This document shows positions 11,219 to 41,881 of a DNA stretch of 64,000 nucleotides, in pieces (within the stretch, counting starts at the first letter, position 1; every line of letters starts with the position of its first letter). The translations under genes were made by a program, and so were the position numbers. Source of the DNA: a virus; IMG/VR virus record IMGVR_UViG_3300035123_000008, positions 1 through 64,000 of that record; one strand, given 5' to 3'. Under the pieces are notes generated by a model that was not told where the DNA came from, searched no databases, and saw only the letters and a program-made list of their open reading frames with translations.

Positions 11219-11219
11219 G

Positions 11220-21032: not shown

Positions 21033-21041
21033 GAGGCAGAA

Positions 21042-21242
21042 ATGAAGGGTCAAGCAAGAAGGAGTTATCAAGAACTTGTAAAGAGAATCGATGCACTTGA
21101 AAAACGTATGGCAGATATGGAAAAAGCGCGTAATGAGTTGAATAGGGCTCAAGCTGAATTAAAGAGCGCGCCAGCCTCCAAGCCAGCCGCTAAGAAACCA
21201 CCGGCGAAGAAGAAGCCGGCAGCAAAAGGAGGCGAGAAATGA
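21042..21242 (+). CDS. Short coiled-coil protein with Lys/Ala/Pro-rich tail
   Basis: 66 aa, AGGAGG before ATG. Residues 8-40 form a heptad coiled coil (LVKRIDALEKRMADMEKARN), and the tail (KPAAKKPPAKKKPAAKGG) looks like a histone H1 or SH3-binding tail. Located between two large virion genes; a scaffold-like or DNA-contacting virion component is possible. Confidence 0.65.
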   Translation: MKGQARRSYQELVKRIDALEKRMADMEKARNELNRAQAELKSAPASKPAAKKPPAKKKPAAKGGEK

Positions 21243-23725
21243 GCGACACGATACTCGGTGGTAAGTTGACGGTTTACTACCTCGACGAGGATAGACGCAA
21301 GCAAATCAAGTGGACTGGCACAGCAGATAAAGATGATGTTCAGAAAATGATAGACGTCTATGATGCTTGTGAAGATCTGTTCACAGTCCCTCCACAATCA
21401 GATGATGGTTTGATCTTCTCTGCTGAAACTCCCGGTGAGTACACAATCGGGAGAATTGACGCTGGCGATGCCGAACCTTGGTTCATAGACCTCAAGACGA
21501 TGGAGCACATTATTGGCGACTTCGCCAACTTCACAGGTTGTGCGTTGAGGACTTCTGGATGGACACGTGATCTTCCCGGTGATGGAACTGGGGCGGTTGG
21601 TATTTTGGTTGTTCCAATTACGAATGTCGACATTGATTCAAGTGATATTGGAGATACGCTTACTCATACAGGAGATAATGACGCAGGTACTTTGCTCGAC
21701 TTTATTGACACAGGTGGAGCAACGGATTACCTGATCATTCGTCCTGCCGACAATACGCTTGCCAACGATTTCAATACTGGCTCTGGCACTATCCAGATGG
21801 ATACTTCAACCAATACTGCTACGCAGACAGCTATTGGTCATACCGGAGAGATGGTTTGGGGCAACCCTTATACTTCGGGAGCGATCCTTGATGATACTCA
21901 CGTTTTCATGTATCAGGATGGAGCGCGGGTAACTTCCTCAGATGAAACAGATCAAGACTGGTGGGTTGATGGTCACGTAGATCGAGCACTGCCGATTAAG
22001 GATTATACGACCTCGGCATTCCCCACGATTGATGAGGGATACCTTACTGTTAAAGCTAACCAATATGGCTCGAAATATACTTACAGCATTATCAGAATGA
22101 ATACGACCACTGGCGGGAACGTGTCTGCCGGTATCTCATCTGTCGATGACATTACGAACACAACGGGCTATGCTTCGATCACGCTCACAGGTGCAACGGG
22201 TAACTGGAATGTTGGTGATGAAATCTATGTGTCGGGAACTGAGACAAGGGCGATTCTCACTCAGGTTGATAATCCGGGTGCGACCCCCACGTTGCACTTC
22301 TTCTACATCGGAGACCCGATTACTGCGTTCCTAACGGGGCAAACAATCACCAATGATGATGACACTGGTACTGGTACTGAGGATGGTTCCGGTCCAGTCG
22401 CTCAAGGTCCTGATCTTACAACTTGGTTCGATGGGAACTCCAAACCAACCTATACTTTTGCCAACACACAAGTAGACATCGACGACGATGGCACGGATGA
22501 AGAATACGGGATCACCATTGACCTTCTTTCTTGTTCGTTGGCTCAGATGCACGAATACAATAAGTTTGTACATCGGCGCGGTTCGGTTATAGATCAAGAT
22601 GGGTTGGATGGGCAAGAGTGGATCGGTCTAGACTATGCGATCAATTACGCAACCATCACTGGAACTGTGAACGAGGGTGATACCGTGACAGGTGTTACTT
22701 CAGGAGCAACCGCGGTCGTGGTTTCAAATCCGGGTGGAACATCAAATACAGCATTGGTTAGAAATACACGTGGTGACTTCCAAGATGCCGAACAGATTCA
22801 GGTGGACGGTGCGAACTACTTCGCTGCGTCTGGTCTTACGGTTGAAGTTATCGTGCCGGTTGCAGAGTCGTCTTTCGGGACGCTTGCAGGAACAACCTTC
22901 TTTGCTTCAAGGGGCGTTGTTCTGGACAACTGGAAATCAGCGGAGGAGAACAACTTCTCGCTGATTGACGCAACTGGCGAAACGAGAACCAGACCTACAT
23001 CTATCACAATGACGATCTCAAACCTGCTTCAATACGACTATGCAAGCTGCTTCAGGTTGACCGGATCGGGCGGGATTATTGAAAAAGATGAATACTCAGC
23101 AACGGGTGGCGAATCCATTGGAGATACAACCATCACAGTCGATGGGACGATTGCTGCTGACGTTCCCGGTAAGACAGCGGGAGGTACGCTCGTTATTCGA
23201 GATGATACTGACAGCGCCGAATACGTGGTTAGATACTCGTCCTATGTTGCTTCAACTGGTGTTGTCACTTTAGCTAATTCCACTTGGACAGCGGAGGCGT
23301 TGACCGATGATGACACCATCATAGATACCGGAGCTTTCGCCAATACCAAGGTTGGAGATTTGGTTTACAACAATGACCTGACAGCCGTTAGCTATGTTTC
23401 GGAAGTGGTCAGCAACGATGAAATCACAATCTATCCCCCACTCACCGGACAGGATGTTGGTGACACAGGCGAGATCAACTGCGTACCTATCGCAATGAAC
23501 ACGAATGATGATGTTTACTTCATGATCGTGTTCGAGTTCAAAGAATCAGATGGGGATGCTACGGCTTCGATGGTTTATGTTGCAGACATTTATGCTCGTG
23601 TAAGAGTCAGAAATACAGCAGACGCTGCGATCAAGATCAAGGGTTATACCGGGGACACGATAATCGGAACGGGTGGAGGTACGGCGAGCGCCACAAGAAT
23701 CCCGAATACGGTCTATGGATCGTAA
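21239..23725 (+). CDS. Large virion structural protein
   Basis: 828 aa, ATG after AGGAGGCG, overlapping the previous stop by four bases. Thr/Asp/Gly-rich beta sequence with repeated small domains. Two bacterial-repeat-like segments, ITGTVNEGDTVTGVTSGATA and a similar stretch near 290-340, recall beta-strand modules of phage surface proteins. Neither signal peptide nor catalytic motif is seen. The gene position after the portal suggests a head or connector-attached protein. Confidence 0.6.
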   Translation: MSDTILGGKLTVYYLDEDRRKQIKWTGTADKDDVQKMIDVYDACEDLFTVPPQSDDGLIFSAETPGEYTIGRIDAGDAEPWFIDLKTMEHIIGDFANFTGCALRTSGWTRDLPGDGTGAVGILVVPITNVDIDSSDIGDTLTHTGDNDAGTLLDFIDTGGATDYLIIRPADNTLANDFNTGSGTIQMDTSTNTATQTAIGHTGEMVWGNPYTSGAILDDTHVFMYQDGARVTSSDETDQDWWVDGHVDRALPIKDYTTSAFPTIDEGYLTVKANQYGSKYTYSIIRMNTTTGGNVSAGISSVDDITNTTGYASITLTGATGNWNVGDEIYVSGTETRAILTQVDNPGATPTLHFFYIGDPITAFLTGQTITNDDDTGTGTEDGSGPVAQGPDLTTWFDGNSKPTYTFANTQVDIDDDGTDEEYGITIDLLSCSLAQMHEYNKFVHRRGSVIDQDGLDGQEWIGLDYAINYATITGTVNEGDTVTGVTSGATAVVVSNPGGTSNTALVRNTRGDFQDAEQIQVDGANYFAASGLTVEVIVPVAESSFGTLAGTTFFASRGVVLDNWKSAEENNFSLIDATGETRTRPTSITMTISNLLQYDYASCFRLTGSGGIIEKDEYSATGGESIGDTTITVDGTIAADVPGKTAGGTLVIRDDTDSAEYVVRYSSYVASTGVVTLANSTWTAEALTDDDTIIDTGAFANTKVGDLVYNNDLTAVSYVSEVVSNDEITIYPPLTGQDVGDTGEINCVPIAMNTNDDVYFMIVFEFKESDGDATASMVYVADIYARVRVRNTADAAIKIKGYTGDTIIGTGGGTASATRIPNTVYGS

Positions 23726-24110
23726 CCTTGAAGTTTTTGTCGAAGGCTTGGGTCCGATAATCAAGAGGGACCTAGATAAGCACAGGTCCCTCTTGGAGCA
23801 AGTTCATCGCGACCATTTAGCCTTTGTGCAAGCACGCTCGTATGAGATTGCTAGGAAAAAGAACTGGAAAAGCAAAATAGGTGGAGGCAAGTACGATGAC
23901 GATGCTATGCGAGAGGCTATAAAACAGATCAACCAAAACATAAGACACTTCAGCGCAAAGATCAAACTGGCTGACGAAAAGATCAAGCATCATAAATTGA
24001 TCGTGGATACCTTGACCGATCGGTTAAAAGAGTACCAAGAGGAAGAATACCAGTTCTTAATTCAGCAAGCAGTAAAGCGGAGGAAAGGGAACAATGCCTC
24101 TGGAAATTGA
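23715..24110 (+). CDS. Coiled-coil protein
   Basis: 131 aa from ATG 23715, overlapping the previous stop. Nearly entirely helical with heptads (REAIKQINQNIRHFSAKIKL) and a basic C terminus. It could be a scaffold or virion assembly factor; no family recognised. Confidence 0.65.
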   Translation: MDRNLEVFVEGLGPIIKRDLDKHRSLLEQVHRDHLAFVQARSYEIARKKNWKSKIGGGKYDDDAMREAIKQINQNIRHFSAKIKLADEKIKHHKLIVDTLTDRLKEYQEEEYQFLIQQAVKRRKGNNASGN

Positions 24111-24759
24111 TTGGGTTGCACAGGTGATTCAGATTACATCCCCAACCACGGAGGAGGATGCTCAAACGCTACATGACTTTATCGAAGATAACATGGCAAC
24201 TCCGGTTGGGTTATTGTATGGAGACATTATAGACCCTCAAGGAAAAATCGAGGATCCCAACAATCCGGGCGTTTACACGCAGATCATTCTTATCTTCAAC
24301 TCGCCTTGGCAGATTCAGTTTTGGGGTGGTTCGGGTTATACGCGGGTCTATGGAGGAAAGTTCACTGGTGGGTTAGCTGGCGAGGTTTTGAAAGCAACAG
24401 GAACCGCGGGAGATATTTCCGTTTTAGAAAGCCAAGTTGACGGAACTATAGTTGTGACCAGTGGGGGCATTACGCCTTCGGACTTAGATGATATTGCCGA
24501 TGCAGTTTGGGATGAATCATTGGCAGATCATTTGAATGTTGGTTCAGTGGGCGCAGCCATAATGAAAGCGCTCGGTTTGAGTGGAGAAAATACGAAGTGG
24601 TCTAATATGTCTCACAACGCTAATCATCTCTTAACGGCTGCTACGATCACTGAGTACTCAGATCATACGTTGGCAACGCCCCTTTATGTTTGGAGGCTCA
24701 CGGCAGCTTATAACGCACAGGGAAGGTTGACTTCCTATCAAATGGTTGAGGTTCCATGA
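24094..24759 (+). CDS. Virion-associated hypothetical protein
   Basis: 221 aa, with GGAAAGGG before the ATG. Residues 1-115 are beta-rich (IILIFNSPWQIQFWGGSGY); then LDDIADAVWDESLADH, a segment that recurs in phage virion proteins, and a C-terminal strand-rich stretch (LYVWRLTAAYNAQGRLTSYQ). Function unknown. Confidence 0.65.
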   Translation: MPLEIDWVAQVIQITSPTTEEDAQTLHDFIEDNMATPVGLLYGDIIDPQGKIEDPNNPGVYTQIILIFNSPWQIQFWGGSGYTRVYGGKFTGGLAGEVLKATGTAGDISVLESQVDGTIVVTSGGITPSDLDDIADAVWDESLADHLNVGSVGAAIMKALGLSGENTKWSNMSHNANHLLTAATITEYSDHTLATPLYVWRLTAAYNAQGRLTSYQMVEVP

Positions 24760-24944
24760 CAACCGGACTAAGCATTGGATCACGTGGGAGAATTGGTAGA
24801 ACTACTGCGCTCACTATTGGTAGCATAGGCAGGTTGGTTGCTCGGATCATAGAGGTTATTGCCCCAAGAAGGCAACCGAGAGTTGTCGGGATACCGGATT
24901 GGTTTTTCAATGATGACGACGAAGTTTTAATCGAGCTAGACTAG
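24756..24944 (+). CDS. Small basic/hydrophobic protein
   Basis: 62 aa coupled to the previous gene through ATGA. The Gly/Ile/Arg-rich centre (SIGRLVARIIEVIAPRR) could be an amphipathic or weak membrane helix; the C terminus is acidic. Unassigned. Confidence 0.5.
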   Translation: MTTGLSIGSRGRIGRTTALTIGSIGRLVARIIEVIAPRRQPRVVGIPDWFFNDDDEVLIELD

Positions 24945-24962
24945 AAACGGGAGAAAAGGAAA

Positions 24963-25247
24963 ATGGCAAAACAACTTACGATTGAGGACTTTCAAAACCT
25001 TGGTTATCTGCAGGAGCTTAATCGAACATTCCTGCACCCATTGGGTCTGTCTTTGGGGATTAGCATCGATGACAAAGGCGAGAAGCAGCTTTACGCAATC
25101 TTCGACCACCGAGATGAGAAGTCGGGACCAGTTTTCAAGGCTGGACAACTAAGCCAAGAGAAAGTCGATTTCGTTGAAGCGCAGCGAAAGGAACGTAATC
25201 AGGTGCGCTTGAACCAATACGGTTTCGACATTCAACCTGTGGAATGA
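24963..25247 (+). CDS. Conserved-type hypothetical phage protein
   Basis: 94 aa with the recurring late SD AAACGGGAG upstream. Starts MAKQLTIEDFQNLGYLQELN; this opening and the following LHPLGL, with an IFDHRDE segment, recur in many hypothetical proteins of siphoviruses. Role unknown. Confidence 0.7.
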   Translation: MAKQLTIEDFQNLGYLQELNRTFLHPLGLSLGISIDDKGEKQLYAIFDHRDEKSGPVFKAGQLSQEKVDFVEAQRKERNQVRLNQYGFDIQPVE

Positions 25248-25591
25248 CAATGGATCACAAAGTCTTTAAATTAGGCATGACTTCGGATAATGTTGTATTC
25301 ATCGTCAATCACACACGGAGAGATTATGTCCATTCAACGAAAATCATCGGAATCGAAGATAACGGGTTGCTCGTCCAGTATTACTTGCAAGATGCAACAC
25401 TCACATTTGCTCGAAGAGATGGAGAATATCGAATCATCAAAGTCGAATCCCCCATCACAAAAGAGCAATATGACGAGATCGAGGAAGCGGATGTGCAGCC
25501 CTATTTAGATGCGCATTTTGGCAGCGTAAGGTATGACGAGGTTGCCCATCATGGCAAAGCTGACAGCAAAAAAACTGGCAGAGAAATATAA
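25244..25591 (+). CDS. Hypothetical protein
   Basis: 115 aa, coupled by ATGA overlap; an ATG at 25250 is an alternative start. Beta-rich (KVFKLGMTSDNVVFIVNHT) with an acidic helix near the C terminus. It overlaps the start of the glycan cassette by 41 nt. Unassigned. Confidence 0.6.
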   Translation: MTMDHKVFKLGMTSDNVVFIVNHTRRDYVHSTKIIGIEDNGLLVQYYLQDATLTFARRDGEYRIIKVESPITKEQYDEIEEADVQPYLDAHFGSVRYDEVAHHGKADSKKTGREI

Positions 25592-26813
25592 TCTCCTAAC
25601 AGTTGGGGAGGTAAAAGCTCTTCAATCAGTTGGACAATTCTTACCTAAAAGTCCAGTGATCGTGAATGTCGGTGCTGGTAAAGGTACAAGCGCATTGGCT
25701 TTCTTAGAGGCTTATCCAGACGCTTGGTTGACTACGGTTGATCGGAATAGGAAAGCGCTCGATGGCGAATATGCCTATCTGTTTGCAAGTGGATTAAACC
25801 TAGAAAGATACACGTCCATCAGAAACGACAGCATCAAAGCAGCTAGAAATTGGGAGCGTAAAAATATAGACGTTCTGCTGCTTGATGGTGCGCATAACTA
25901 TGAATATGTTCGTGAGGAAATAGAGCTTTGGTCGAAGTTCGTGGTCGATGGAGGTTTTATTTTCATTCACGATTATGGAGTTGGTCATCCAGTATGGCAG
26001 CAGGTTAAACAGGCTGTTGACGAGTGGAGAGAACAGGAACAGATCGACCTCTACAAACGGGAGCGCATAATGGTCGCTGTTCGCATTCCTTCTTGGGGAA
26101 GGGACTTGAAGCGTCATGAAGTCCAGCATTATGTTAACCTGCTCCATACTGGTAAACCGTTTGGGCTTGCGCGCTACGGCGACGGAGAGTGGCGCTGCAT
26201 TTTGGGTGAGATTGGTGGCAAGAACTCCAATGGGTGTACTTTCACTGAGGAGATATGCGATGCCTTGAGAAAGGTGTTGCATAAGAACTCGTCTTATGAA
26301 CACGCTGTCTTGAGAATTGCGCGGGACAAGTTGGGGAAACGCATTGGTAACTTTCTTAGCTTGAATGGGATCAAGGTTGAATGGACGATAGGTAACACCT
26401 TCTTAGACGAATCGTTCAAGGGTAAACTGTGGCCATTGATCGCAGCATTGAGAAAAAGGAAAATCGTTTACGTAGGACCTGAGTACTTGCGACCCATCAA
26501 AGACATATTTTTCAAGTATGTTGCTTATGTCGAAATCCCCCCGATTGACGCTTACAAAGAGCAAGGCAGAATCATTCCCGAAATGCTACATGCAGTAGAA
26601 CAGCATGAAGCGAACTTGGTTGGTTTCTCGGCAGGTCATCACAAACACCTTTTTGCAGAAGCACTCTGGAAGCACTTTAATGAGCAGGTTTCCTTTATTG
26701 ACTTTGGTTGTATTTGGGATGGATACCTTGGTAAGAAATCTCGCAAGTTTCTACGCAAAGGACAATATGACTGGAAGGAACTACAGCGGTTGAATGTGAG
26801 AAGGAAGCTATGA
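25551..26813 (+). CDS. Methyltransferase / GT-D glycosyltransferase fusion
   Basis: 420 aa. Residues 1-170 are a class I SAM methyltransferase of the Methyltransf_24 kind (motif I VNVGAGKGTSA at 38-48, IDVLLLDGAHNYEYV near 106-120). Residues 174-420 are a GT-D fold glycosyltransferase (DUF1792-like; FGLARYGDGE with the D211-x-E213 pair). The junction holds AAACGGGAG at 26055-26063 and an in-frame ATG at 26070 (codon 174), so a free GT-D protein is probably also made. The closest relative is the stand-alone GT-D at 27066. Predicted role: sugar transfer plus O-methylation on a virion glycan. Confidence 0.85.
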   Translation: MAKLTAKKLAEKYNLLTVGEVKALQSVGQFLPKSPVIVNVGAGKGTSALAFLEAYPDAWLTTVDRNRKALDGEYAYLFASGLNLERYTSIRNDSIKAARNWERKNIDVLLLDGAHNYEYVREEIELWSKFVVDGGFIFIHDYGVGHPVWQQVKQAVDEWREQEQIDLYKRERIMVAVRIPSWGRDLKRHEVQHYVNLLHTGKPFGLARYGDGEWRCILGEIGGKNSNGCTFTEEICDALRKVLHKNSSYEHAVLRIARDKLGKRIGNFLSLNGIKVEWTIGNTFLDESFKGKLWPLIAALRKRKIVYVGPEYLRPIKDIFFKYVAYVEIPPIDAYKEQGRIIPEMLHAVEQHEANLVGFSAGHHKHLFAEALWKHFNEQVSFIDFGCIWDGYLGKKSRKFLRKGQYDWKELQRLNVRRKL

Positions 26814-27079
26814 CGGAAAAAGAAATCATAAAGAAATTATGGTCGCGCAGTTTCTACTTAGATGTAATTAAGGGGAATCCTCCGGAAGATGCAGTCAGGC
26901 TTGCTTTAGAAGGATTGTTTCTACATATGGCAAGGGAAGTTAAAAATACAGATATAAGTAGTGCTCAATGGTATCCGATGGACTTCCCAATGAGACTAAC
27001 TTTATCAAGCGAACAAGTATTCTGGGATTTTCGACTATCCATGAAGCTAGAAATAGAAGAACACAATGACGGAGAATAA
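26810..27079 (+). CDS. Hypothetical protein in the glycan cassette
   Basis: 89 aa overlapping both neighbours (ATGA start; 14-nt overlap with the second GT-D gene). Helical N terminus (IIKKLWSRSFYLDVIKG), aromatic centre (AQWYPMDFPMRLTL). Lying between two GT-D genes, it may be an accessory protein, but no motif is visible. Confidence 0.6.
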   Translation: MTEKEIIKKLWSRSFYLDVIKGNPPEDAVRLALEGLFLHMAREVKNTDISSAQWYPMDFPMRLTLSSEQVFWDFRLSMKLEIEEHNDGE

Positions 27080-27812
27080 GCGAGTATGGGGCAGCAAGCT
27101 CAAGCGGTTTCCACTTACTTATTACGTGGATATGCTCAGACGAGATGCTCCCTTTGGGTTCGCACGTTATGGCGATGGGGAGTGGCTAACGATCCTTGGG
27201 GATTACGGCAATAAGAATTCTAACGGTTGCACTTTCACGCCTCAATTGGGCGATGCTTTAAGGAAGGTGTTGCATAACAACAATAACTATGAACACTCTA
27301 TTCTCAAGATAGCGCGGCGAAAGTTGGGAGATCGCATTGGTCCATTCTTGGAGGAAGGGAAGTACATGCTGGAATGGACAATTGGCGATACCTTTTTAGA
27401 GCGATCATTGAAAGGGAAGATATGGCCATTGGTTGCGCAGCTTCGCCAGAAAAGGATAGTCTATGTCGGTCCAGAACATCTCAGAGCTTTGGGGAAAACT
27501 TTCTTTAAAATACAAGAATACGTGCAAATCCCGCCGAGAGATGCTATTACAAAACGGGCAACTATTGTACCTGCCATTCTGCGAGCGATCTCGAATACCA
27601 ACGCTCAACTGGTGGGTTTTTCTAGCGGATTACATTCAAAGGTCTTCATCGACGATATATGGATGGAAACCGGAGGAATGATAACGCTGATCGATTTTGG
27701 CAGTATGTGGGATGGGTACTTTGACGTTCCATCACGCTCTTACATAAGGAAAGGAAAGCACGATTGGGGCAAGCTGCAACAGGACAACACAAGAGGCAGA
27801 CGCCTAAAATAA
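27066..27812 (+). CDS. GT-D fold glycosyltransferase, paralog
   Basis: 248 aa. FGFARYGDGEW gives D37-x-E39; GNKNSNGCTF, VYVGPEHLR and TLIDFGSMWDGYF align position by position with the C-terminal part of the preceding fusion protein, so the two arose by duplication. GT-D enzymes transfer hexose to protein-linked glycans in streptococcal serine-rich repeat proteins; here the acceptor is unknown. Confidence 0.85.
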   Translation: MTENKRVWGSKLKRFPLTYYVDMLRRDAPFGFARYGDGEWLTILGDYGNKNSNGCTFTPQLGDALRKVLHNNNNYEHSILKIARRKLGDRIGPFLEEGKYMLEWTIGDTFLERSLKGKIWPLVAQLRQKRIVYVGPEHLRALGKTFFKIQEYVQIPPRDAITKRATIVPAILRAISNTNAQLVGFSSGLHSKVFIDDIWMETGGMITLIDFGSMWDGYFDVPSRSYIRKGKHDWGKLQQDNTRGRRLK

Positions 27813-28477
27813 TCAACCCGTATGACCTATATTCAGAGGATATTTACGTGCGAGAAAAAATAGCTTTAGAGCCAATCTTAGGGGTCATAGAGAAACCTAT
27901 CATCTTTGAATTGGGTGCGCACTTTGGTATCTCGACAGGGAGAATCAAAACCCTTGCACCGAACTCAATCTATTATGCCTTTGAGCCGGATATTCGCAAC
28001 CTGAAAATTCTTTGGAGCCTCTATACATCAAACCATGTAAACATAATTTCAAAAGCTGTGGGTAAGGTTGATGGCAAGGTGAAATTCTGGCAATCTGGAG
28101 GCACGAATAAATCTGGGAGGTTGCATACCGATTCTTCATCCATTAAGAAACCCGTTGCCCATGAGAAAATGTTCCCTTGGATGACCTTTCAGGAAACCGA
28201 AGTAGAGTGCGTAAGGTTGGACACATTTTGCGCTGCGAAGGGTGTAACCCACATTGACCTTATTTGGTCGGATGTACAGGGTGCAGAACTTGATGTAATC
28301 GAAGGTGGACAGGAAACCTTCAAGCGAACACGCTGGTTTTATACCGAGCACATGAACAATCCAAGGTATGAAGGACAACCCAACTTGGGGCAGATCATCG
28401 AAGCACTTCCCGGGAACTGGAGAATTGATACAAAGTGGGAGATGGATGCTCTGCTGGAGAATGTAGACTATGCTTGA
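27764..28477 (+). CDS. FkbM-family methyltransferase
   Basis: 237 aa from TTG 27764 (AGGAA eight bases upstream); GTG 27849 is an alternative. SAM motif IIFELGAHFGISTGRI, later YYAFEPDIRN, ECVRLDTFCA and HIDLIWSDVQGAELDVIEGG, a complete FkbM signature. FkbM enzymes O-methylate sugars or polyketides. It overlaps the GT-D gene by 49 nt, indicating common translation of the cassette. Confidence 0.85.
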   Translation: MGQAATGQHKRQTPKIINPYDLYSEDIYVREKIALEPILGVIEKPIIFELGAHFGISTGRIKTLAPNSIYYAFEPDIRNLKILWSLYTSNHVNIISKAVGKVDGKVKFWQSGGTNKSGRLHTDSSSIKKPVAHEKMFPWMTFQETEVECVRLDTFCAAKGVTHIDLIWSDVQGAELDVIEGGQETFKRTRWFYTEHMNNPRYEGQPNLGQIIEALPGNWRIDTKWEMDALLENVDYA

Positions 28478-29036
28478 TTCATACACGATAGGCGAGAAAT
28501 TCCCAATGCTGGTAAAGGCAGAGATAGACCTGTTAAAAGAATGCGTCAATGAGCTTTTGCCCGATCCGGTTATTGTTCAAATAGGTGCTGGTGTCGGTGC
28601 GAGCTCACTGGCTATGCTTGAGGAAAGGGATGATCTCTTTATCTTCTCGATTGATATTGAGTTTCCAAAAACTGGCATCTATAAGCCGGGGGAAAAAGAA
28701 AACCTGATGTTAGCAGGTCATTGGGATGGTCGATTGATTCAGGTGCTTGGCAGTAGTCAATACGTTGGGCAACGTTGGAGGTTCCCAATCGATTTACTTT
28801 TTATTGACGGTGATCACAGGTACGAATATGTAAAGCAGGATATAGAGCTTTTCGTTCCTCATGTTATGGAAGGTGGTTATATTCTCTTTCATGACTATGC
28901 TGAGAAGCTAAAGAAACCCAAGGCCGGCGTTAAGAAAGCAGTCGATGAATTGCTTGGACACTATGAAGTTGTCGGACAAAGGAAGTGGCTATGGGCGATA
29001 ATGAAGCCTTTTACGTTGCATGGAACCACGGAATAA
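28470..29036 (+). CDS. Class I SAM methyltransferase
   Basis: 188 aa. VIVQIGAGVGASSLAML is motif I and IDLLFIDGDHRYEYVKQDIE the acidic DGDH motif of Methyltransf_24 enzymes, like the N-terminal domain of the fusion at 25551. It likely O-methylates a sugar. Starts and ends in overlaps with its neighbours. Confidence 0.85.
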   Translation: MLDSYTIGEKFPMLVKAEIDLLKECVNELLPDPVIVQIGAGVGASSLAMLEERDDLFIFSIDIEFPKTGIYKPGEKENLMLAGHWDGRLIQVLGSSQYVGQRWRFPIDLLFIDGDHRYEYVKQDIELFVPHVMEGGYILFHDYAEKLKKPKAGVKKAVDELLGHYEVVGQRKWLWAIMKPFTLHGTTE

Positions 29037-29641
29037 AAGAAGCTGTCAATAGCTGCAAGTCATTGAAAGAACACAACCCTGATCTTCGGGTATCTCTTGC
29101 TTGCTTTGAGCCTATTGAGATTGATTGTTTTGACCATGTTTTTAGTTTTGCTGAGCGAGAGTTTTCAGAGAATAAATTCTTACGAAAAGTGGAGTTGATC
29201 TACGAGTTTCTTATACGATCAGAAGCGCAGCGCGTTCTGTTTCTGGATACCGACACAACAATATTCGGGAGCGTTCAACCTATTTTTGATTCTCTGGATT
29301 ATGCGCAGTTGGCAATGGCATTAGCTCCAGTCGCTATGAGAAACGAGGGGGTTCCCGATTCAATTGCAACATATAACACAGGCGTGATGGGTGTTTATTG
29401 TTTATATGAAACTGTCATCCGTCAATGGCTGGAAGCAACAAGACATAACGATGACGATCAACACGCTATGCGCTGGCTAATTCATAACGCAGGACTTAAA
29501 ATCGCCACGCTTTTACCAAGGTACAACTTTCGACCGAAGTTCCCAGCTTACTTAAGCGGGAAACCTGTCATCATTCACAATCGGCAAGGAGACAATAAGA
29601 AGATTTTTAAGAGAGCAAACAAGGGGCATTGGAAGCCGTAA
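28991..29641 (+). CDS. GT8-like glycosyltransferase
   Basis: 216 aa from ATG 28991 with GGAAG. GT-A organisation: FYVAWNHGIKEAVNSCKSL at the N terminus, RVLFLDTDTTIFG with the DTD metal motif at 86-88, YNTGVMGVY, and a C-terminal PVIIHNRQGDNK as the late His motif. Retaining hexosyltransferase chemistry would be expected for the family. Confidence 0.8.
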   Translation: MGDNEAFYVAWNHGIKEAVNSCKSLKEHNPDLRVSLACFEPIEIDCFDHVFSFAEREFSENKFLRKVELIYEFLIRSEAQRVLFLDTDTTIFGSVQPIFDSLDYAQLAMALAPVAMRNEGVPDSIATYNTGVMGVYCLYETVIRQWLEATRHNDDDQHAMRWLIHNAGLKIATLLPRYNFRPKFPAYLSGKPVIIHNRQGDNKKIFKRANKGHWKP

Positions 29642-29652
29642 AGGAGCTTGAA

Positions 29653-30327
29653 ATGAATAAAGAATTTGGACGCTTATATTCTGTAGACGAGAGGGATCAA
29701 AACTACCTGATCTCCGCGCTCTCAGCCGTTGCAGAACCGGAGATAACAAGGACATACCGTTATTGGTGGGCTGATGGGCATTGGGGAGATCAAGGTGCTA
29801 CGCCCCAATGTGTTGCCTATGCTTGGTTGCACTTCATGGAGGATGGACCCGTCACATGGGAACCTCGCTCACCCGGAAGCGGTTTTATCTTTGAACCCGA
29901 GGACCTATACAGCCAAGCGCAGCAAGTGGACGAATGGCCGGGAGAAGGATATGCCGGGACAAGCGTTCGAGCAGGCGCAAAAATCATGCGACAATGGGGC
30001 ATTATAAGTGAATACCGTTGGGCGTGGGATTTGCAAGGTTTGATTGATGCTGTGCTACATGCTGGTCCTGTCGTGGTGGGAACCAATTGGTACGAGCGTA
30101 TGATGAACCCGAATGCCGATGGTTACATTGTTCCCAAAGGCGCTCTCCTTGGTGGGCATGCTTATGTTATCAACGGTGTCAATCTCAATAGACGCATTTT
30201 CAGGCTCAAGAACAGTTGGGGCAGGGAGTGGGGCGATAGCGGTCATGCTCTCCTGCGATACAAACACATGGAAAAGCTGATAAACGAGCAGGGCGAAGTT
30301 TGCTTGGCGGTGGAAGCACAGACATGA
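29653..30327 (+). CDS. Papain-family (C1-like) cysteine protease
   Basis: 224 aa from ATG 29653 (AAGGAGCTTGAA). Catalytic Cys53 in QGATPQCVAYAW, His169 in GGHAYVINGVN and Asn187 in LKNSWGREWGDSG: the full papain triad and the NSWG signature. No signal peptide or propeptide, so it acts in the host cytoplasm or in the virion. Between a glycosyltransferase and a sulfotransferase, it may process a modified virion protein (inference). Confidence 0.9.
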   Translation: MNKEFGRLYSVDERDQNYLISALSAVAEPEITRTYRYWWADGHWGDQGATPQCVAYAWLHFMEDGPVTWEPRSPGSGFIFEPEDLYSQAQQVDEWPGEGYAGTSVRAGAKIMRQWGIISEYRWAWDLQGLIDAVLHAGPVVVGTNWYERMMNPNADGYIVPKGALLGGHAYVINGVNLNRRIFRLKNSWGREWGDSGHALLRYKHMEKLINEQGEVCLAVEAQT

Positions 30328-31070
30328 TCCGTGAGACGATCTTCGTTGCAGGTTATCCCAAAAGTGGGAACACTTGGTTGACACGCTTGTTAGCCGATGT
30401 TCTGGATTCGCCATCAGGTGGTTGTCGCCCAATAGATGATGACGCCGAGGTTGCAACGGAGGGGCAGGATCGAGAGGGCAAGTACATTGTTCGCAAAGGA
30501 CATTTTCGACCCGTAGAAAACAATGAAGGTCCCATTGTGCCTAAAGAACACAAATTGGCATGGAAGAGGATAACCACGCAGAAGGTTGTCTTGATCTACC
30601 GTGACCCTCGGGATGTACTTGTGTCGGGTGCGCACTATTGGAGACGAGATCAGGCAGAACATTGGGATATGATTCGAACAGGGCATGGCTCAATGCGCTT
30701 GCATGGTCCTTGGGACTGGTACATGGACGAATGGTTGCGCTTTGAGGGCGAACCGTGGTTTGTGAAAGTGAGCTACGAGAGCTTGCTGAAGAATACCTAC
30801 TATGCAATCTGCTACGTGCTATCAAAGCTGAGGATTGACATACCAGTTTACTCGCATGTCGAAAGCGCAATCCAGCGTCAATCCTTCGAGGAGAAAAAGA
30901 AAGCGTTGGTAAAGAAACCGCACAACCCGAAATACAACAGCAAGTTTCACAGGCACTTCATGCGCAAAGGGCAAGCAGGGTCATGGAAAGATGAACTTAA
31001 TCCTATATTAGCAATGGCGGTTGTGGAGATGTTTGGTGACACGATGCGAAGGTTGGGATATGTTAGCTAA
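30324..31070 (+). CDS. PAPS-dependent sulfotransferase
   Basis: 248 aa. All three sulfotransferase signatures are present: the 5'-phosphosulfate loop YPKSGNTWL (11-19), the 3'-phosphate site IYRDPRDVLVS (91-101) and a C-terminal RKGQAGSWKDEL. The protein would move sulfate from PAPS to a hydroxyl of a sugar or tyrosine. PAPS must come from the host, as no kinase or sulfurylase gene is seen. Unusual in a phage and placed in a glycosylation cassette. Confidence 0.9.
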   Translation: MIRETIFVAGYPKSGNTWLTRLLADVLDSPSGGCRPIDDDAEVATEGQDREGKYIVRKGHFRPVENNEGPIVPKEHKLAWKRITTQKVVLIYRDPRDVLVSGAHYWRRDQAEHWDMIRTGHGSMRLHGPWDWYMDEWLRFEGEPWFVKVSYESLLKNTYYAICYVLSKLRIDIPVYSHVESAIQRQSFEEKKKALVKKPHNPKYNSKFHRHFMRKGQAGSWKDELNPILAMAVVEMFGDTMRRLGYVS

Positions 31071-31776
31071 TCTACCTATCTGTGTCTTAACCTGTGATGA
31101 ATACCTGTGGATGCTGCGACCTTTTGCCTTCCTGTTCAATACCTTTTGGGATGAGGAGCAGGAGGTACGCATTTATGGCTATAAGCCAAACTACAAAATC
31201 ATCAATGATCTACCAAGTAATTTTGCTTTCTATTCTCTCGATCGGAACTGCTATCCTGCAGATCGTTGGAGTGACGGACTGATACAGCTTATTCGCTTAT
31301 TGAAGGTCGAGCACTTCATACTTTTTTTAGAGGATTTCTGGCTTTATGACAACGTTTGTCTCAATCAGATAAATTCTTTGGTTGGTTACACATTCCTGAA
31401 TAAAGATGTGCTGCGAATGGATTTGACCAATGAGCGCATTTCAAAAAAGAGTGCGCAAATAATAGAGCATTTCGATGGTATTGGAATCGTAGACGCCGGC
31501 TTACCATCTAAGTACTCGATGAGTTTTCAGGTCGGGATCTGGAACAGCGAACTTGCTCTCAAGGTGTTACGAGAGGGTGAGACACCTTGGAAAGCGGAGA
31601 TTGATGGAACGAAACGGGTGAACGCAATGAAAGGAGAACTACGGGTGCTTGGAACTGACAAGCGACCTGTGCGCTATCAACCTGTTTACCGGAATCATAA
31701 ACGTCAATTAAGGATTAACAAAATACCAACACATCTAATGAATGTAATTATGAAACGGGGCTGGTTGGACGGATAA
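31060..31776 (+). CDS. Probable glycosyltransferase (GT-A-like)
   Basis: 238 aa from ATG 31060, overlapping the sulfotransferase. LPICVLTCDEYLWMLRPFAF at the N terminus, WSDGLIQLIRLL and HFILFLEDFWLYD (acidic motif) resemble nucleotide-sugar-binding GT-A folds of poorly described phage and bacterial transferases. The family is not named with certainty. Last gene of the cassette, ten bases before the head morphogenesis gene. Confidence 0.6.
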   Translation: MLANLPICVLTCDEYLWMLRPFAFLFNTFWDEEQEVRIYGYKPNYKIINDLPSNFAFYSLDRNCYPADRWSDGLIQLIRLLKVEHFILFLEDFWLYDNVCLNQINSLVGYTFLNKDVLRMDLTNERISKKSAQIIEHFDGIGIVDAGLPSKYSMSFQVGIWNSELALKVLREGETPWKAEIDGTKRVNAMKGELRVLGTDKRPVRYQPVYRNHKRQLRINKIPTHLMNVIMKRGWLDG

Positions 31777-31785
31777 GGGGAAAAG

Positions 31786-32412
31786 ATGACTTGGAAGTGG
31801 GATCCGATTGCGGGTCGTTACTGGAATTCGGAAACAAAGAAACATATTGGTCGAACTAAAGCCCTTGAATATGTAGAAATGTCAGCCACGGCTACAGGGT
31901 TAGCTACGGATGATCTGGCTCTTTTACTATCTGATGAAATTATTGGTGCTGCCGAATGGCGAATAGCAATGAGAGAATCCGTTAAGCGAGAATATATTAG
32001 GCAGTATCTTTTAGGTCGTGGTGGTTTGGAACAGATGACGTATGCCGATTGGGGGAGTATCGGCGGTATGCTTGCAGAGCAATATGGTCACCTTGATAAT
32101 TTTACAGCCGTATTGGGTGATCTCTCTGAAGCTCAGATCATGGCTCGAAGTAAGATGTACATTAATAGTGGGCGTGAAGCCTATGAAAGAGCACATGCAA
32201 GGGTTGCTATTGGTTTGGGATTTGATGAGGAAGCTTGGGTGATAGATCCATTAGCCTTAAATTGTGATGATTGTTTGGCTTATTACGAAGAGGGCTGGAA
32301 ACCTATTGACCACTTTCCTTTTCCCGGTCAAGGATGGACGGTTTGCCTTACGAATTGTAAATGCCATAAAGAGTATAGAAACTCTCAAACTGAGGAGGTA
32401 TGGGAAGGGTGA
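31786..32412 (+). CDS. Head morphogenesis protein (Mu gpF/SPP1 gp7-like)
   Basis: 208 aa, GGGGA upstream of the ATG. The N-terminal helical domain is followed by ARVAIGLGFDEEAWVIDP and the Cys-rich end (CDDCLAYYEEGW, PFPGQGWTVCLTNCKCHKEY), the characteristic ending of minor head proteins. It would help prohead assembly and interact with portal. In most phages it is next to portal; here 13 kb lie between. Confidence 0.8.
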   Translation: MTWKWDPIAGRYWNSETKKHIGRTKALEYVEMSATATGLATDDLALLLSDEIIGAAEWRIAMRESVKREYIRQYLLGRGGLEQMTYADWGSIGGMLAEQYGHLDNFTAVLGDLSEAQIMARSKMYINSGREAYERAHARVAIGLGFDEEAWVIDPLALNCDDCLAYYEEGWKPIDHFPFPGQGWTVCLTNCKCHKEYRNSQTEEVWEG

Positions 32413-32744: not shown

Positions 32745-34379
32745 ATGCCATATAGTGGACCAGACGACCCTGATCTCCCAGAAAACGTCCAAGACTTATC
32801 GCAGGACAAAAGGGAACAGTGGGTTGCAATTTTTAACTCATCCTTCGAGCGTTGTCAGGAGGAAGGGTTGAGCGAAGTTGCAGATGACCCCTCCCAATTC
32901 GATAGCTGTGAAGCCTTCGCATTTGCCAACGCCAACGGTGTCGTATTGGAGAAGGAGGAGCGAATGGAAAAACCTAGATGGATGCAAGCATGGGAACAAT
33001 TGCGCGACCTGATTCTTGAGTTCCCCAAGAGCATTACAGAGTTGCGTGCCCTCAGTGGTGAATCGCTTTTCAATCAACTGTGGGATGGTCTGCTTGAGCG
33101 CGGTGACTGGATTTGGGTCAACGATATTTATTGGGACGATGATGGCAGCACCTTTGCCATAGTTTCCAGTGAAGGCAAATTGTATCGGGTCAACTTTACC
33201 ATTGATGGTAATGAAGTCCGTGTCTCCGATGATTGGCAAGAAGTAGAGCCAGAGTTTAAACCTCTTTCAAGAACTACAACCAAAATCATAAGGCAGAAGG
33301 ATGGTCGTGTGCGGTGGCTTTCCATTTCCAACACGGCGGTTCTCAACCGTTCCGGAGAGCTTGATGCACGTGAGCTATTTGATAGCTTTATCCAACATGC
33401 ACAGGAAACAGGTGAGCATCCATATCGAACTTTTTACCATCAGGGGAAAGAGATGAAAACGGGTGACACCGATTTCATGGCTCGTGATGGATACTGCTAC
33501 ATCACCAGCGGTTTGTATGAAGAGGACAATCCTCTCGCAGAGCATGAAATAAAAGCATTGGAGCGAGAGCCGGAGTATTGGGGAGAAAGCATTGGATTTG
33601 AAGTCTCAGACTTTGAAAATATGGAGGTGGCAGAGGGAGTAACGATACCAGTTTTCACAAAAGGAATTCACAGAGAAACATCAACATTACCGAGCGACCG
33701 TGCTTGCGCTTTGTTTACAAGGACGTTCGCAACGAAGGAGGTTGCACGAATGAAACCAGATGTTAAGGAGGCACTCACACGCTTAACCGATGGCGACGAG
33801 GAATTGATCGAACAGTTTGACGAGGTGTTGAATGAAACCAACCGAACCATTGAAGAGGAGAATCTTGTCAGGCGAGAGGAAGAGGTTGAACCAGAAGCCG
33901 AAGCTGAACCAGTGGAAGAGGAAGTCGAAGCTGAAGAGGAAGAGGCTGAAGAGGAAGCTGAACCCGTTGCCGAGGTTGAGGAAGAGGAGCCAGAAGTTGT
34001 AGAGCAAGCGTTTCCTGAGATCGGAGAGCTGGAGCTTGACGATGAAGTTGTGGAGCGTATTGCTGAAACTGCTTTGCAGTCCGAGCATATCATCTCGGAG
34101 TTTGAATTGCGGGATGGAGACATTGCAGAGCTAAAGAAAGGCATCGAGGAGTTACAGGCAATCGTTCGTGGGTTGCAAGACCTACCGAAGCGTGTCACTG
34201 CGCTTGAGTTGTCCGATGATGAAAAGCGTCAAGTTTGGTTGGAGGATCAACCCAAGAAAGCGGAAAAGATAACTGTGACCTATCGTCCTCGCGAGGATCC
34301 CGAGAAGGAATCAGAGGAAGAAGAGTCGATGGCTTCGAAGGCAGAGGATACGTTGGAAAAGATGCCAACGTACAAGTAA
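32745..34379 (+). CDS. ChaB-like / capsid protease / scaffold fusion protein
   Basis: 544 aa, AGGAGG before ATG. Residues 3-45 resemble ChaB-like domains (PENVQDLSQDKREQWVAIFN, FERCQEEG). Residues about 170-330 look like an XkdF/prohead-protease-type domain (HPYRTFYHQGKE, DFMARDGYCYITSGLYEEDN, ETSTLPSDRACALFTR). Residues 370-440 are extremely Glu-rich, followed by coiled coil (LKKGIEELQAIVRGLQDL), as in scaffolds. Directly upstream of the capsid gene, it is the expected protease-scaffold. The protease active site is not certain. Confidence 0.65.
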   Translation: MPYSGPDDPDLPENVQDLSQDKREQWVAIFNSSFERCQEEGLSEVADDPSQFDSCEAFAFANANGVVLEKEERMEKPRWMQAWEQLRDLILEFPKSITELRALSGESLFNQLWDGLLERGDWIWVNDIYWDDDGSTFAIVSSEGKLYRVNFTIDGNEVRVSDDWQEVEPEFKPLSRTTTKIIRQKDGRVRWLSISNTAVLNRSGELDARELFDSFIQHAQETGEHPYRTFYHQGKEMKTGDTDFMARDGYCYITSGLYEEDNPLAEHEIKALEREPEYWGESIGFEVSDFENMEVAEGVTIPVFTKGIHRETSTLPSDRACALFTRTFATKEVARMKPDVKEALTRLTDGDEELIEQFDEVLNETNRTIEEENLVRREEEVEPEAEAEPVEEEVEAEEEEAEEEAEPVAEVEEEEPEVVEQAFPEIGELELDDEVVERIAETALQSEHIISEFELRDGDIAELKKGIEELQAIVRGLQDLPKRVTALELSDDEKRQVWLEDQPKKAEKITVTYRPREDPEKESEEEESMASKAEDTLEKMPTYK

Positions 34380-34416: not shown

Positions 34417-35736
34417 ATGACACAAGGTGTTGATATAAGAGAACGACAGAGCGATATGAGTATCAGTTCGTTGGCGACAATCTATGGTTGTTGTGGGTTG
34501 TTCGATCTTTGTGGAGATGCAGATTTAATCTCTCTGTCAATGGAGGGTGCTGATCCATTTCTAGACTGGATTGGTTGGGTTCCAACGTTAGATTGTATCG
34601 TCAAGAGACACTTCATTGCTTGGAATCGCCCGGAATATTCTGCTGGCTCTCCAACCGCGGGTTATCTGGCTGATCCATGCGCCGACCCCAACTCGGTAGA
34701 GTGGGGCGTGTGTGATTTCACGCTGGAAGATTTCGCTCGTCTGCGACGTGAAGGACCTGTGCGGGACGTAACCTACAACGCAGTCAATTACTGCCAGTCC
34801 CAACCGCGCTATCGCCTTGATGGAACGCTGATCGATGATGACCGAGAGTACGATGCTCGTGTGATCTCCGAGGTTCTGCTGCAAGACCTGCGTCGAATGT
34901 TCGTAACTGGTTCAGGTGCGGCTGGAACCTTTGCAGGGCTCGAGCAGCTTGTGAACACAGGCTATACCAATTCAGATGGCACACCCTGCCGTTTGATGGA
35001 TAGTATGGTCATCGACTGGAACAGCAACGGCATGAATGGGGGCGCGGGAGCGACCTTCAATGGTGCTGGTATTGCTGCTGGCTACAACTTTGTCGATGTG
35101 CTGCTTGACATCTATCGCCGGATGCGAACACGGCTCTCTTGGTCACCTACGCTTGCCTCTCAGCCTCTGAGTACTGGAGATGTTGTGTTGGTAATGCCGA
35201 CACATATGGTTCGATGCTTGCTGGATGCGTATACCTGCTGGAGCGTTTGTGATGGGCAGGAATACAACGAAGTTGCAATCCAGTCGTATGAAGCTCGAAC
35301 CTTCAGGACCCAGTTGAATGGTGGCATGTTTGGCAGTGGTCGTATCTTCCTCGATGGGTTTGAAGTTCCCCTGATCGCGTACGATTGGGAACTCATCAAG
35401 GGACCAACCCTTTCAGACATCTATATGCTGGTTGGAAATGTTGGAAGCGTAAAGACGCTCATGGGTGAGTTCGATGATATGCGGGCTGTTACGTCAAGCT
35501 TCCCAGAAGCTGGCTATTTCGTAACTGATGGTGGTCGCTTCTTGGGTTGGCTGGATCGTGATGAAACCTGCTACACCCAGACATTAGAGTTTCGACCGAG
35601 GCTTGTGTCATGGGCGCCATGGTTGAATGCTAGGTTCCAGAATGTGCGTTGCGAAACCCCAACTGGACCTCTCTCACCAGACCCAACGGCAACGAGCTTC
35701 TTCCCAGAGACCTCGTTCGATATTGCGGAATGCTGA
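34417..35736 (+). CDS. Probable major capsid protein
   Basis: 439 aa, GGAGG upstream. Directly after the scaffold, with an HK97-like organisation by eye: N-terminal arm, E-loop-like segment with EWGVCDFTLEDFARLRREGP, a central helix region (DAREYDARV-like REYDARVISEVLLQDLRRMF) and VVLVMPTHMVRCLLDAY. It holds about 14 cysteines, far more than normal for major capsid proteins, beginning with GCCGLFDLCGD. Chain cross-links or metal binding are possible. Confidence 0.75.
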   Translation: MTQGVDIRERQSDMSISSLATIYGCCGLFDLCGDADLISLSMEGADPFLDWIGWVPTLDCIVKRHFIAWNRPEYSAGSPTAGYLADPCADPNSVEWGVCDFTLEDFARLRREGPVRDVTYNAVNYCQSQPRYRLDGTLIDDDREYDARVISEVLLQDLRRMFVTGSGAAGTFAGLEQLVNTGYTNSDGTPCRLMDSMVIDWNSNGMNGGAGATFNGAGIAAGYNFVDVLLDIYRRMRTRLSWSPTLASQPLSTGDVVLVMPTHMVRCLLDAYTCWSVCDGQEYNEVAIQSYEARTFRTQLNGGMFGSGRIFLDGFEVPLIAYDWELIKGPTLSDIYMLVGNVGSVKTLMGEFDDMRAVTSSFPEAGYFVTDGGRFLGWLDRDETCYTQTLEFRPRLVSWAPWLNARFQNVRCETPTGPLSPDPTATSFFPETSFDIAEC

Positions 35737-35808: not shown

Positions 35809-37662
35809 ATGGAAAATCTTACGGTCGTTATTCCGTTTTTCAACGGGCATGAAACTATTGGTAGGTTACTCGATAGCCTACCAGCGGAGTTATCGGTCAT
35901 TGTCGTAGATGACTTGAGCGATGAACCGTTGCACCTTAACAATCGAAACGTGACAGTGTTAGCTTTGCTGGAAAAGGGCTATTTCGCTGGAGCGGTCAAT
36001 ACGGGGTTAGCAGCTTGCGACACCGATGTACTGGTTCTCAACCAAGACGTTGCCTTTACTGATGGACGCTGGCTTGATTTTATCGAAAAGAATCGTGGTC
36101 GGTATGCCGTCATAGGGGATGGTGTCTTTGGTCACCCTGCTTGGGAAAAGGGTTATGTGCAAGGGACCTTCATGTTCATGCGCCGAGATGCGATCAATGA
36201 AGTTGGCTATCTCGACACTGAGAATTATCCATTGTGGGGTTGTACTGCCGAGTGGCAGCTGCGCGCTTGTCGATACGATTACGAAGCACTCCCTGTAAAA
36301 CCTGTTCCAGGCATGTACCACGAAAGGGATGCGTATGGAGGCAAGAGCTATGGATCCTCCATCACAACCATATTGGAGCGCGAGCCTGATAAGAGAGGCT
36401 ATTTCATAAGAACGCCTCCTATGATCTCCGTGGTTGTACCTTGCTTCAATCATGGTCGCTATTTGCAGGACCTTGTCAATTCCCTGCTCGGTGGTAAAAC
36501 GCCCCTTGGTGAGTTTCCCCCTCAATCCTTCCAGTCCTTTGAGATCATTTTGGTTGATGATGCAAGCTCGGATGACACTTGGGAATACATGCAAGAGCTT
36601 GTCGATCCGTGGAAGGGCATACGGGCATACCAACACAAGGTCAACAGTGGAACCGCTGCCGCGAACAACACAGGTGCGAAGCGCGCATATGGAAAGTTTC
36701 TCACCTTTATTAGCGCAGATGACATGATGGAACCGGATCGCCTTGAGCGACTTTACAAAGCATCGCTCAAGCATGAAGGGAAAGTGATCTACGATGATAT
36801 GTTTGTGTTTACACGTGACAAGCGATCCAAAGCGTGGGCGATGCGCAACTATGATTTTGAATTGCTGCTCACGAAAAATCACATGCACGCCGGAATCTTC
36901 TTTCCGAGAAAAGCATGGGAGGAAGTAGGTGGTTATCCCGAGCTAATGAACAAAGGGCGTGAGGATTGGGCTTTCAATGTGCGCCTTGGTATTCATGGCT
37001 GGTGTGGCCACCATTTGAGCAATTATGCAGGATACCTTTATCGCAGGGAGGGGCAGAACAGAACGCTAACCAACACAAACCCTGTCTGGCGATCTATTTT
37101 TCTAAACCAGATGGTTTCCTTATTTGGAAACATCTATGCAGGAGAGCGACCTATGGGATGCTGTGGTGGTAGACGAAGAAACCAACCCAAGACGATTAAA
37201 AGAAGGAGGTCACCAATGGCATTGCCGGGGAGTGAAGGCATGGTCCTGATCGAGTACCTTGAAGGCAAGCATGGGATCATGAGCTTTTATGGACCTGTGA
37301 CAGGAACCCGTTACACCTTTGGAGGTAGCAGGAAGGTGAGCTACGTTGACGCCGAAGATGCAGCGGAAATGGTTGGTATGGTCAAGAACCGTAAATCCGT
37401 TTTCAGGTACTTCGAAGCCAAGAAGAAAAAGAAAGTGGAAGTGCGCAAGGTTGCAGCTAAAGACGAAGCTCCTGAAGCTGTGCCGGTGGACGATGTGCCG
37501 GTCTTTGATCCGGGAGCGATGAGCATTTCCGAGCTAACCAAGGCACTCGAAGGTATCAGCAACGTTGGGATACTGGAAGAAGTGCATAAGCAGGAGCAAG
37601 TGGGGAAAGCTAGAGTTGGGGCGTTGAGGGCGATCAATGCTGCAATTAAAGATGCTCGCTAA
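35809..37662 (+). CDS. Double GT2 glycosyltransferase fused to a small virion-type protein
   Basis: 617 aa, SD AAACGGGAG. First GT2 domain 1-200 (LTVVIPFFNGHETI, VIVVDDLSDE, LVLNQDVAF). Second GT2 domain 205-440 (ISVVVPCFNHGRYL, IILVDDASSDDTW, FISADDMMEP, NKGREDWAF). From codon 449 comes a distinct 169-aa protein, MGCCGGRRRNQPKTIKRRRS..., of the kind that follows capsid genes, ending in a Rho-N-like helical segment. ATG 37153 has GGAGAG six bases upstream, so separate translation of this part is likely. The enzyme may be tethered to the head it modifies. Confidence 0.85.
   Translation: MENLTVVIPFFNGHETIGRLLDSLPAELSVIVVDDLSDEPLHLNNRNVTVLALLEKGYFAGAVNTGLAACDTDVLVLNQDVAFTDGRWLDFIEKNRGRYAVIGDGVFGHPAWEKGYVQGTFMFMRRDAINEVGYLDTENYPLWGCTAEWQLRACRYDYEALPVKPVPGMYHERDAYGGKSYGSSITTILEREPDKRGYFIRTPPMISVVVPCFNHGRYLQDLVNSLLGGKTPLGEFPPQSFQSFEIILVDDASSDDTWEYMQELVDPWKGIRAYQHKVNSGTAAANNTGAKRAYGKFLTFISADDMMEPDRLERLYKASLKHEGKVIYDDMFVFTRDKRSKAWAMRNYDFELLLTKNHMHAGIFFPRKAWEEVGGYPELMNKGREDWAFNVRLGIHGWCGHHLSNYAGYLYRREGQNRTLTNTNPVWRSIFLNQMVSLFGNIYAGERPMGCCGGRRRNQPKTIKRRRSPMALPGSEGMVLIEYLEGKHGIMSFYGPVTGTRYTFGGSRKVSYVDAEDAAEMVGMVKNRKSVFRYFEAKKKKKVEVRKVAAKDEAPEAVPVDDVPVFDPGAMSISELTKALEGISNVGILEEVHKQEQVGKARVGALRAINAAIKDAR
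37153..37662 (+). CDS. Internal in-frame product: small head-type protein
   Basis: 169 aa, read from the in-frame ATG 37153 inside the GT2 fusion gene. Strong SD (AGGAGAG). Basic Cys-rich start (MGCCGGRRRNQPKTIKRRRS), then a beta domain (GMVLIEYLEGKHGIMSFYG, TRYTFGG), a Lys-rich linker and SISELTKALEGISNVGILEE, a helical domain. Similar stand-alone small proteins occur near capsid genes of other phages. Its existence as a separate protein is inferred from the ribosome binding site. Confidence 0.55.
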   Translation: MGCCGGRRRNQPKTIKRRRSPMALPGSEGMVLIEYLEGKHGIMSFYGPVTGTRYTFGGSRKVSYVDAEDAAEMVGMVKNRKSVFRYFEAKKKKKVEVRKVAAKDEAPEAVPVDDVPVFDPGAMSISELTKALEGISNVGILEEVHKQEQVGKARVGALRAINAAIKDAR

Positions 37663-40362: not shown

Positions 40363-40364
40363 AA

Positions 40365-41870: not shown

Positions 41871-41881
41871 GGCAGGTAAAC

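Follow-up and report, generated by a model that had tools for sequence, protein, structure and literature searches.

Glycosylation of phage particles by phage-encoded enzymes has been described in mycobacteriophages: according to the accessible portions of PMC12363180, the virions of Che8, Corndog and Myrna are glycosylated by glycosyltransferases of the phages themselves, and Freeman et al. 2023, as cited in the accessible portions of PMC12363180 and PMC13313380, reported that phage glycosyltransferases modify capsid and tail proteins. Sulfotransferases have also been seen in phages, as marine phages (OM43 phages and cyanophage S-SRM01) carry Sulfotransfer_3 proteins whose function, in the accessible text of PMC10580990, 'remains unclear', and a role of phage sulfotransferases in nucleotide or protein modification has been proposed (PMC10829341). 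Here we describe a cassette of glycosyltransferase, methyltransferase and sulfotransferase genes at positions 25551–31776 of the window, by which we mean bases 1–64000 of the 71,158-base IMG/VR tailed-phage record IMGVR_UViG_3300035123_000008. Comparison with related and unrelated phages suggests that these genes, together with a further glycosyltransferase gene beside the putative capsid gene, probably form a phage-encoded virion glycosylation module, which would equip a virion protein with an O-methylated and sulfated glycan from donors supplied by the host. The presence of sulfate on that glycan is, in our judgement, about an even call.

A sequence-only reading of this DNA had described nine overlapping genes in the interval, and all of them are present on the + strand. 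The enzyme classes that it had assigned are upheld by Pfam, by a GT-D family profile and by a GT-A-fold model, the GT8-like call being weak. The nine open reading frames (ORFs) and the further glycosyltransferase gene are as follows.

25551–26813 (frame open from 25533), + strand: Methyltransf_24 methyltransferase (PF13578, 7.5e-15, N-terminal half) fused to a GT-D glycosyltransferase
26810–27079, + strand: 89-amino-acid gene with no assigned function and no Pfam or PHROG match
27066–27812, + strand: second GT-D glycosyltransferase, with an invariant RYGDGE motif; the profile of its relatives matches 4PHR/4PFX/5V4A
27764–28477, + strand: FkbM-type methyltransferase (PF05050, Methyltransf_21, 5.5e-21; TIGR01444, 2.2e-23)
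28470–29036, + strand: Methyltransf_24 methyltransferase (PF13578, 6.2e-14)
28985–29641, + strand: putative GT8/nucleotide-diphosphosugar transferase (sub-cut-off matches to PF03407, Nucleotid_trans, 0.009, and PF01501, GT8, 0.045)
29629–30327, + strand: papain-like peptidase (Peptidase_C1, 6.2e-5; phrog_16701, 2e-61)
30300–31070, + strand: predicted sulfotransferase of the 3'-phosphoadenosine 5'-phosphosulfate (PAPS) type (PF00685, Sulfotransfer_1, 3.4e-24)
31021–31776, + strand: predicted GT-A-fold glycosyltransferase (AlphaFold model; predicted local distance difference test, pLDDT, 76; predicted template modelling score, pTM, 0.79)
35809–37662, + strand: tandem GT2 glycosyltransferase of 617 amino acids (PF00535, 1.3e-37, in two stretches)

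Relatives were about 30 viral contigs obtained from capsid and portal searches; below, L denotes loci or contigs and G denotes records, with G010, G013, G021 and G033 being the records of L014, L017, L026 and L062. The same enzyme classes recur among the head genes of these phages: the search for the cassette in relatives that the sequence-only reading had proposed returned similar enzyme sets in the head-gene block, and about ten relatives carry such enzymes there. The order of the window is kept in G031, which at 35–59% identity has portal, Methyltransf_24/GT-D fusion (50% identity), peptidase, sulfotransferase, GT-A-like gene and head genes. Much of the window's set is also held by G010 and by G012, whose slot contains GT-D, Methyltransf_24, FkbM, sulfotransferase, Methyltransf_24, GT8 (in the same place as the GT8-like gene of the window) and GT-A genes. 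In L003 the slot comprises the end of a sulfotransferase, a GT-A-like gene, a methyltransferase-like gene (read from the sequence, unmatched in Pfam) and another sulfotransferase; L004 carries an epimerase and also a methyltransferase–sulfotransferase fusion (11356–12861) between capsid and tandem GT2, the position that such a fusion has in G002; L091 has a GT-A-like gene immediately after a capsid-like gene; and L059 has an 88-amino-acid ORF at the position equivalent to that of the 89-amino-acid gene. In L004 and L007 the homologue of the gene at 31786, which follows the cassette in the window, stands almost directly after the portal, and the cassette therefore fills a slot that is otherwise short.

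The confinement is most easily counted for sulfotransferases. Thirteen such genes in nine records, including some matches below the Pfam cut-off, all lie between the portal and the tandem GT2 (13/13), a slot which makes up 18% of these nine records; the product of the per-record fractions is 6e-7, a value that overstates the significance given that related phages are not independent samples. The sulfotransferases fall into several groups, some pairs being without detectable similarity, and one lineage is fused to a methyltransferase; because of these several lineages, we think repeated recruitment probable. Among 96 slot proteins there were 11 GT2, 10 Sulfotransfer_3, 9 Methyltransf_24, 3 FkbM, 3 epimerase and 3 GT4 matches, with Sulfotransfer_1 also a leading family, and in a set of 138 proteins encoded outside the slot in these genomes, where the leading families belong to replication and DNA metabolism, no slot family had two or more matches (for families with a single match, among the matches listed). 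FkbM matches were confined to the slot region, as were Methyltransf_24 matches bar one. Glycosyl-, methyl- and sulfotransferases prevail in the slot and hardly occur in the rest of these genomes, and this confinement of the enzyme classes to the head-gene block is a clustering far beyond chance.

The identity of the predicted sulfotransferase rests on a domain match of 86 bits against a curated cut-off of 22, on a whole-length alignment with solved PAPS-dependent enzymes (PDB, 6.7e-12) and on the motifs YPKSGNTW, RDPRDVLVSG (PAPS binding) and RKGxxGxWK, which are in register; the corresponding motifs (YPKSGxTW, RDPRDxxVSG and RKGxxGxWK) are conserved in G012 and slightly altered in L059. As for the GT-D genes, no Pfam model, PF08759 included, recognises the window's copies above threshold when they are taken singly. 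The profile of 18 viral GT-D relatives matches the GT-D structures listed above at 1.8e-9 to 6e-9, 11 of these 18 sequences hit PF08759 with E <= 1 (lowest 4.7e-8), and the C-terminal half of the fusion is 53% identical to the second GT-D. A GT-D model (pLDDT 75) had its best matches in TagA/TarA at 2e-3, with no GT-D among the best 50. The last cassette gene has no Pfam or sequence match; structure prediction, which had been suggested as a check of the enzymes and was run on this gene, points to a GT-A fold, with POMGNT1 as the best Foldseek match (1.5e-7) and GnT-I and SpsA among the best, and homologues are present in four relatives of the group.

The set continues past the interval given by the sequence-only reading, which delimited a real block and did not name the tandem GT2 directly downstream of the putative capsid gene. 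This glycosyltransferase is conserved in every relative covering the region, although split or rearranged in a few, and no other part of the system is as constant; its C-terminal domain has no phage or Pfam match that would identify it as structural. Neither it nor any of the nine cassette proteins has a hydrophobic segment above 1.6 or a membrane segment. The claim that the set is sufficient for a methylated, sulfated glycan was too strong, as no gene for nucleotide-sugar synthesis was detected in the cassette and a search for APS kinase gave nothing in the window's record or across 17 records examined; the donors must therefore come from the host. PAPS-reductase-family genes occur outside the head block in G010, G013, G021 and G033 and are absent from the window's record.

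One member of the cassette was dropped from the glycan machinery. The papain-like protease named by the sequence-only reading is real, and probably has nothing to do with the glycan because its relatives in Gordonia phages stand between lysin and holin genes, that is, in lysis cassettes. It was the only protein with a match in a tblastn search of 50,697 phage records. It is retained within the cassette in G031 as well.

The wider distribution of the enzymes extends to other phage groups. In those same 50,697 phage records, DNA-level and single-protein tblastn searches returned no relatives of the cassette, of the capsid or of the window's sulfotransferase, and single-protein scans of viral contigs with the window's sulfotransferase or GT-D found nothing, whereas viral contig scans with the portal alignment and the GT-D alignment did find relatives. 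The GT-D family was found in 25 viral loci. Portal and GT-D scans of cellular genomes gave no match (for GT-D, in 84,980 genomes with the patterns that were applied). An unrelated phage group (L083, also L072–L075 and L079) carries between terminase and portal a module (3285–6510 in L083) with a TOD1-type glycosyltransferase, a GT-D, one or two methyltransferase-like (Methyltransf_24-like) genes and a GT-A-like gene; the TerL, portal and capsid families of L083 are matched by PHROGs 9, 12 and 10. The same toolkit has thus, judging from the sequences, become part of the head-gene block in two phage lineages or more. As a separate observation, L062, a 114-kb unrelated viral contig, has FkbM, GT-D, sulfotransferase (2e-5) and Methyltransf_24-like genes close together at 9360–14160.

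The structural surroundings of the cassette in the window are the following genes.

15207–16592, + strand: terminase large subunit, TerL (phrog_2, 8.9e-36)
16568–18658, + strand: putative portal-like protein, directly after TerL and conserved in viral loci
31786–32412, + strand: head-gene neighbour (phrog_24776, 4e-36, function unknown), which adjoins the portal in the cassette-free relatives L004, L007 and G009
32745–34379, + strand: putative scaffold/protease-like gene, which precedes the capsid gene in mapped relatives
34417–35736, + strand: putative major capsid protein, the likely acceptor candidate, with 44–62% identity in relatives

The portal-like protein shows 39–58% identity across most of its length in viral loci; the gene has no PHROG or PDB match, and neither the portal profile nor the putative capsid profile matches a PDB chain. 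More generally, PHROG, Pfam and PDB gave nothing informative for the window's own portal, capsid, scaffold/protease and head morphogenesis genes, whose identities we infer from order, size and conservation. The earlier description of the cassette as separating portal from head genes holds in that it stands among late head genes, but about 7 kb of other genes (18981–25591) intervene after the portal-like gene. Promoter and terminator scans gave results at chance level and are uninformative on operon structure. Elsewhere in the window, a glycosyl hydrolase catalytic core domain stands amid structural genes (40750–41619, + strand; PF11790, 8.8e-16), and a gene at 63010–63975 (− strand) looks like a trypsin-like serine protease (motifs SNNHVLA and GDSGS).

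We propose that, in the late phase of infection, a short glycan would be assembled on a head-associated protein by soluble glycosyltransferases, namely the tandem GT2, both GT-D domains, the GT-A-fold enzyme and possibly the GT8-like one, the acceptor most likely being the capsid protein or something assembled with the capsid. The Methyltransf_24 and FkbM enzymes would O-methylate sugars, and the sulfotransferase would transfer sulfate from host PAPS to the glycan, with the host supplying sugar donors, S-adenosylmethionine and PAPS. A sulfated, methylated coat could add negative charge and mask the particle, with plausible effects on attachment, stability and recognition. What we infer is the acceptor, the order of steps and the attachment of sulfate to sugar and not to protein.

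Other targets were weighed against the particle. It is unlikely that the cassette hypermodifies phage DNA by placing glycosyl, methyl and sulfate groups on modified bases against restriction, even though a probable DNA-modification cluster with ParB-like, radical SAM-SPASM and TAGT (TET-associated glycosyltransferase; PF20691, 7.5e-51) genes lies just upstream of the terminase (11865–14435, + strand) and PMC10829341 mentions reports of phage nucleotide modification systems that rely on glycosyltransferases and sulfotransferases. That cluster is separate from the cassette; TAGT occurs in the window's record only (1/18), being absent from 17 others, some of them fragments, which include carriers of the cassette or of sulfotransferases; and FkbM, Methyltransf_24, GT-D and nucleotide-diphosphate-sugar epimerases or dehydrogenases would be typical of sugar or polysaccharide work. 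All enzyme classes of the cassette are common in bacterial surface polysaccharide loci, which fits an alteration of the host surface polysaccharide (serotype conversion or superinfection exclusion), as does an LCP-family (LytR-CpsA-Psr) protein encoded downstream of the window (record 64332–65462; L002 12333–13463, − strand; PF03816, 1.2e-19). Such a role is nevertheless distinctly unlikely, given that the cassette proteins have no membrane-spanning segment, and therefore no flippase or membrane anchor, that the enzymes stand within the late head block of many relatives and that relatives of the GT-D genes were found in viral loci and, with the patterns applied, in none of 84,980 cellular genomes. 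Taken together, the missing TAGT in relatives and the lack of membrane segments argue against DNA or host-surface targets, and the particle, the target that the sequence-only reading had favoured, is backed by these two tests, by recurrence in relatives and by the unrelated phage group.

A variant of virion decoration, not exclusive of it, takes a tail fibre, spike or other appendage as the acceptor. GT-D genes adjoin tail-fibre-like genes in L064/L065, and the window has large unassigned or tail-spike-like genes at 18981–23725 and 37945–45520; however, the enzymes of relatives gather round the capsid gene, as with the fusion in G002 and the GT-A-like gene in L091, and G031 keeps the cassette yet is without the window's 18981 and 21239 genes at that place, so that we hold this variant to be possible but doubtful. 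The least likely explanation that we considered treats the genes as unrelated passengers at a permissive insertion site, with no joint function. Slot gene content does differ among relatives, as this would have it, but the variation stays within a narrow set of functions, the order is partly kept over large divergence and the frames are open. Virion glycosylation as proposed here has its own difficulties: besides the non-independence of the related phages, no sulfotransferase was detected in G004, G009, G010, G011, G014, G026 and G028, the portal and capsid in the group of the window lack a match to known families, the GT8-like assignment falls below the Pfam cut-off, an initiating protein-glycosyltransferase is not distinguishable from chain-extending ones, and the phage is uncultured and known here from its genes.

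If virion glycosylation is correct, it would give phage sulfotransferases, known genes with no function assigned so far, a testable role: their confinement to the head block points to sulfation of a virion glycan, and sulfate would alter particle charge and recognition. The sequence-only reading took sulfated phage glycans to be undescribed; this is consistent with the open-licence literature, including the accessible part of PMC10580990, and no report of sulfated virions was found there, which is not proof of absence. We consider it slightly better than even that, in several lineages of tailed phages, enzymes of the phage itself coat the head with O-methylated, sulfated glycans, which would be the bacterial-virus equivalent of sulfated surface glycans. 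With the toolkit recurring in phages that are not related, virion glycan decoration would be a widespread strategy and not an actinophage peculiarity.

The components of the module resemble known enzymes placed in a different setting. The sulfotransferase shares a whole-domain match, PAPS-binding motifs and RKGxxGxWK with cytosolic PAPS-dependent sulfotransferases (Sulfotransfer_1; PDB 7D1X, 7EOV), but it is phage-encoded and lies within a head-gene block. GalT1 (DUF1792/GT-D; PDB 4PHR, 4PFX), which acts in bacterial serine-rich protein glycosylation, shares the R[FY]GDGE motif with the phage GT-D domain and is matched by the family profile at 1.8e-9; the relationship is a remote one, and one of the phage copies is part of a fusion with Methyltransf_24. 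Phage TAGT DNA-glycosylation systems have a likeness in the TAGT gene of the same phage, which however occupies a separate locus and is not common to cassette-bearing relatives. The marine-phage proteins are likewise phage-encoded sulfotransferases, of the Sulfotransfer_3 family, but no cassette or location is described for them in the accessible text of PMC10580990. Glycosyltransferases encoded alongside virion structural genes, the arrangement of virion glycosylation systems, are found here too, the portal and capsid being putative in the window's own group and matched by PHROGs in that of L083. As in Che8, Corndog and Myrna, these are phage glycosyltransferase genes, and methyltransferases are mentioned in related phages in the accessible portions of that source; the glycosyltransferase genes are different, no sulfotransferase is mentioned in those portions and, unlike those phages as described there, the group studied here carries a dense portal–capsid block that includes several sulfotransferase lineages.

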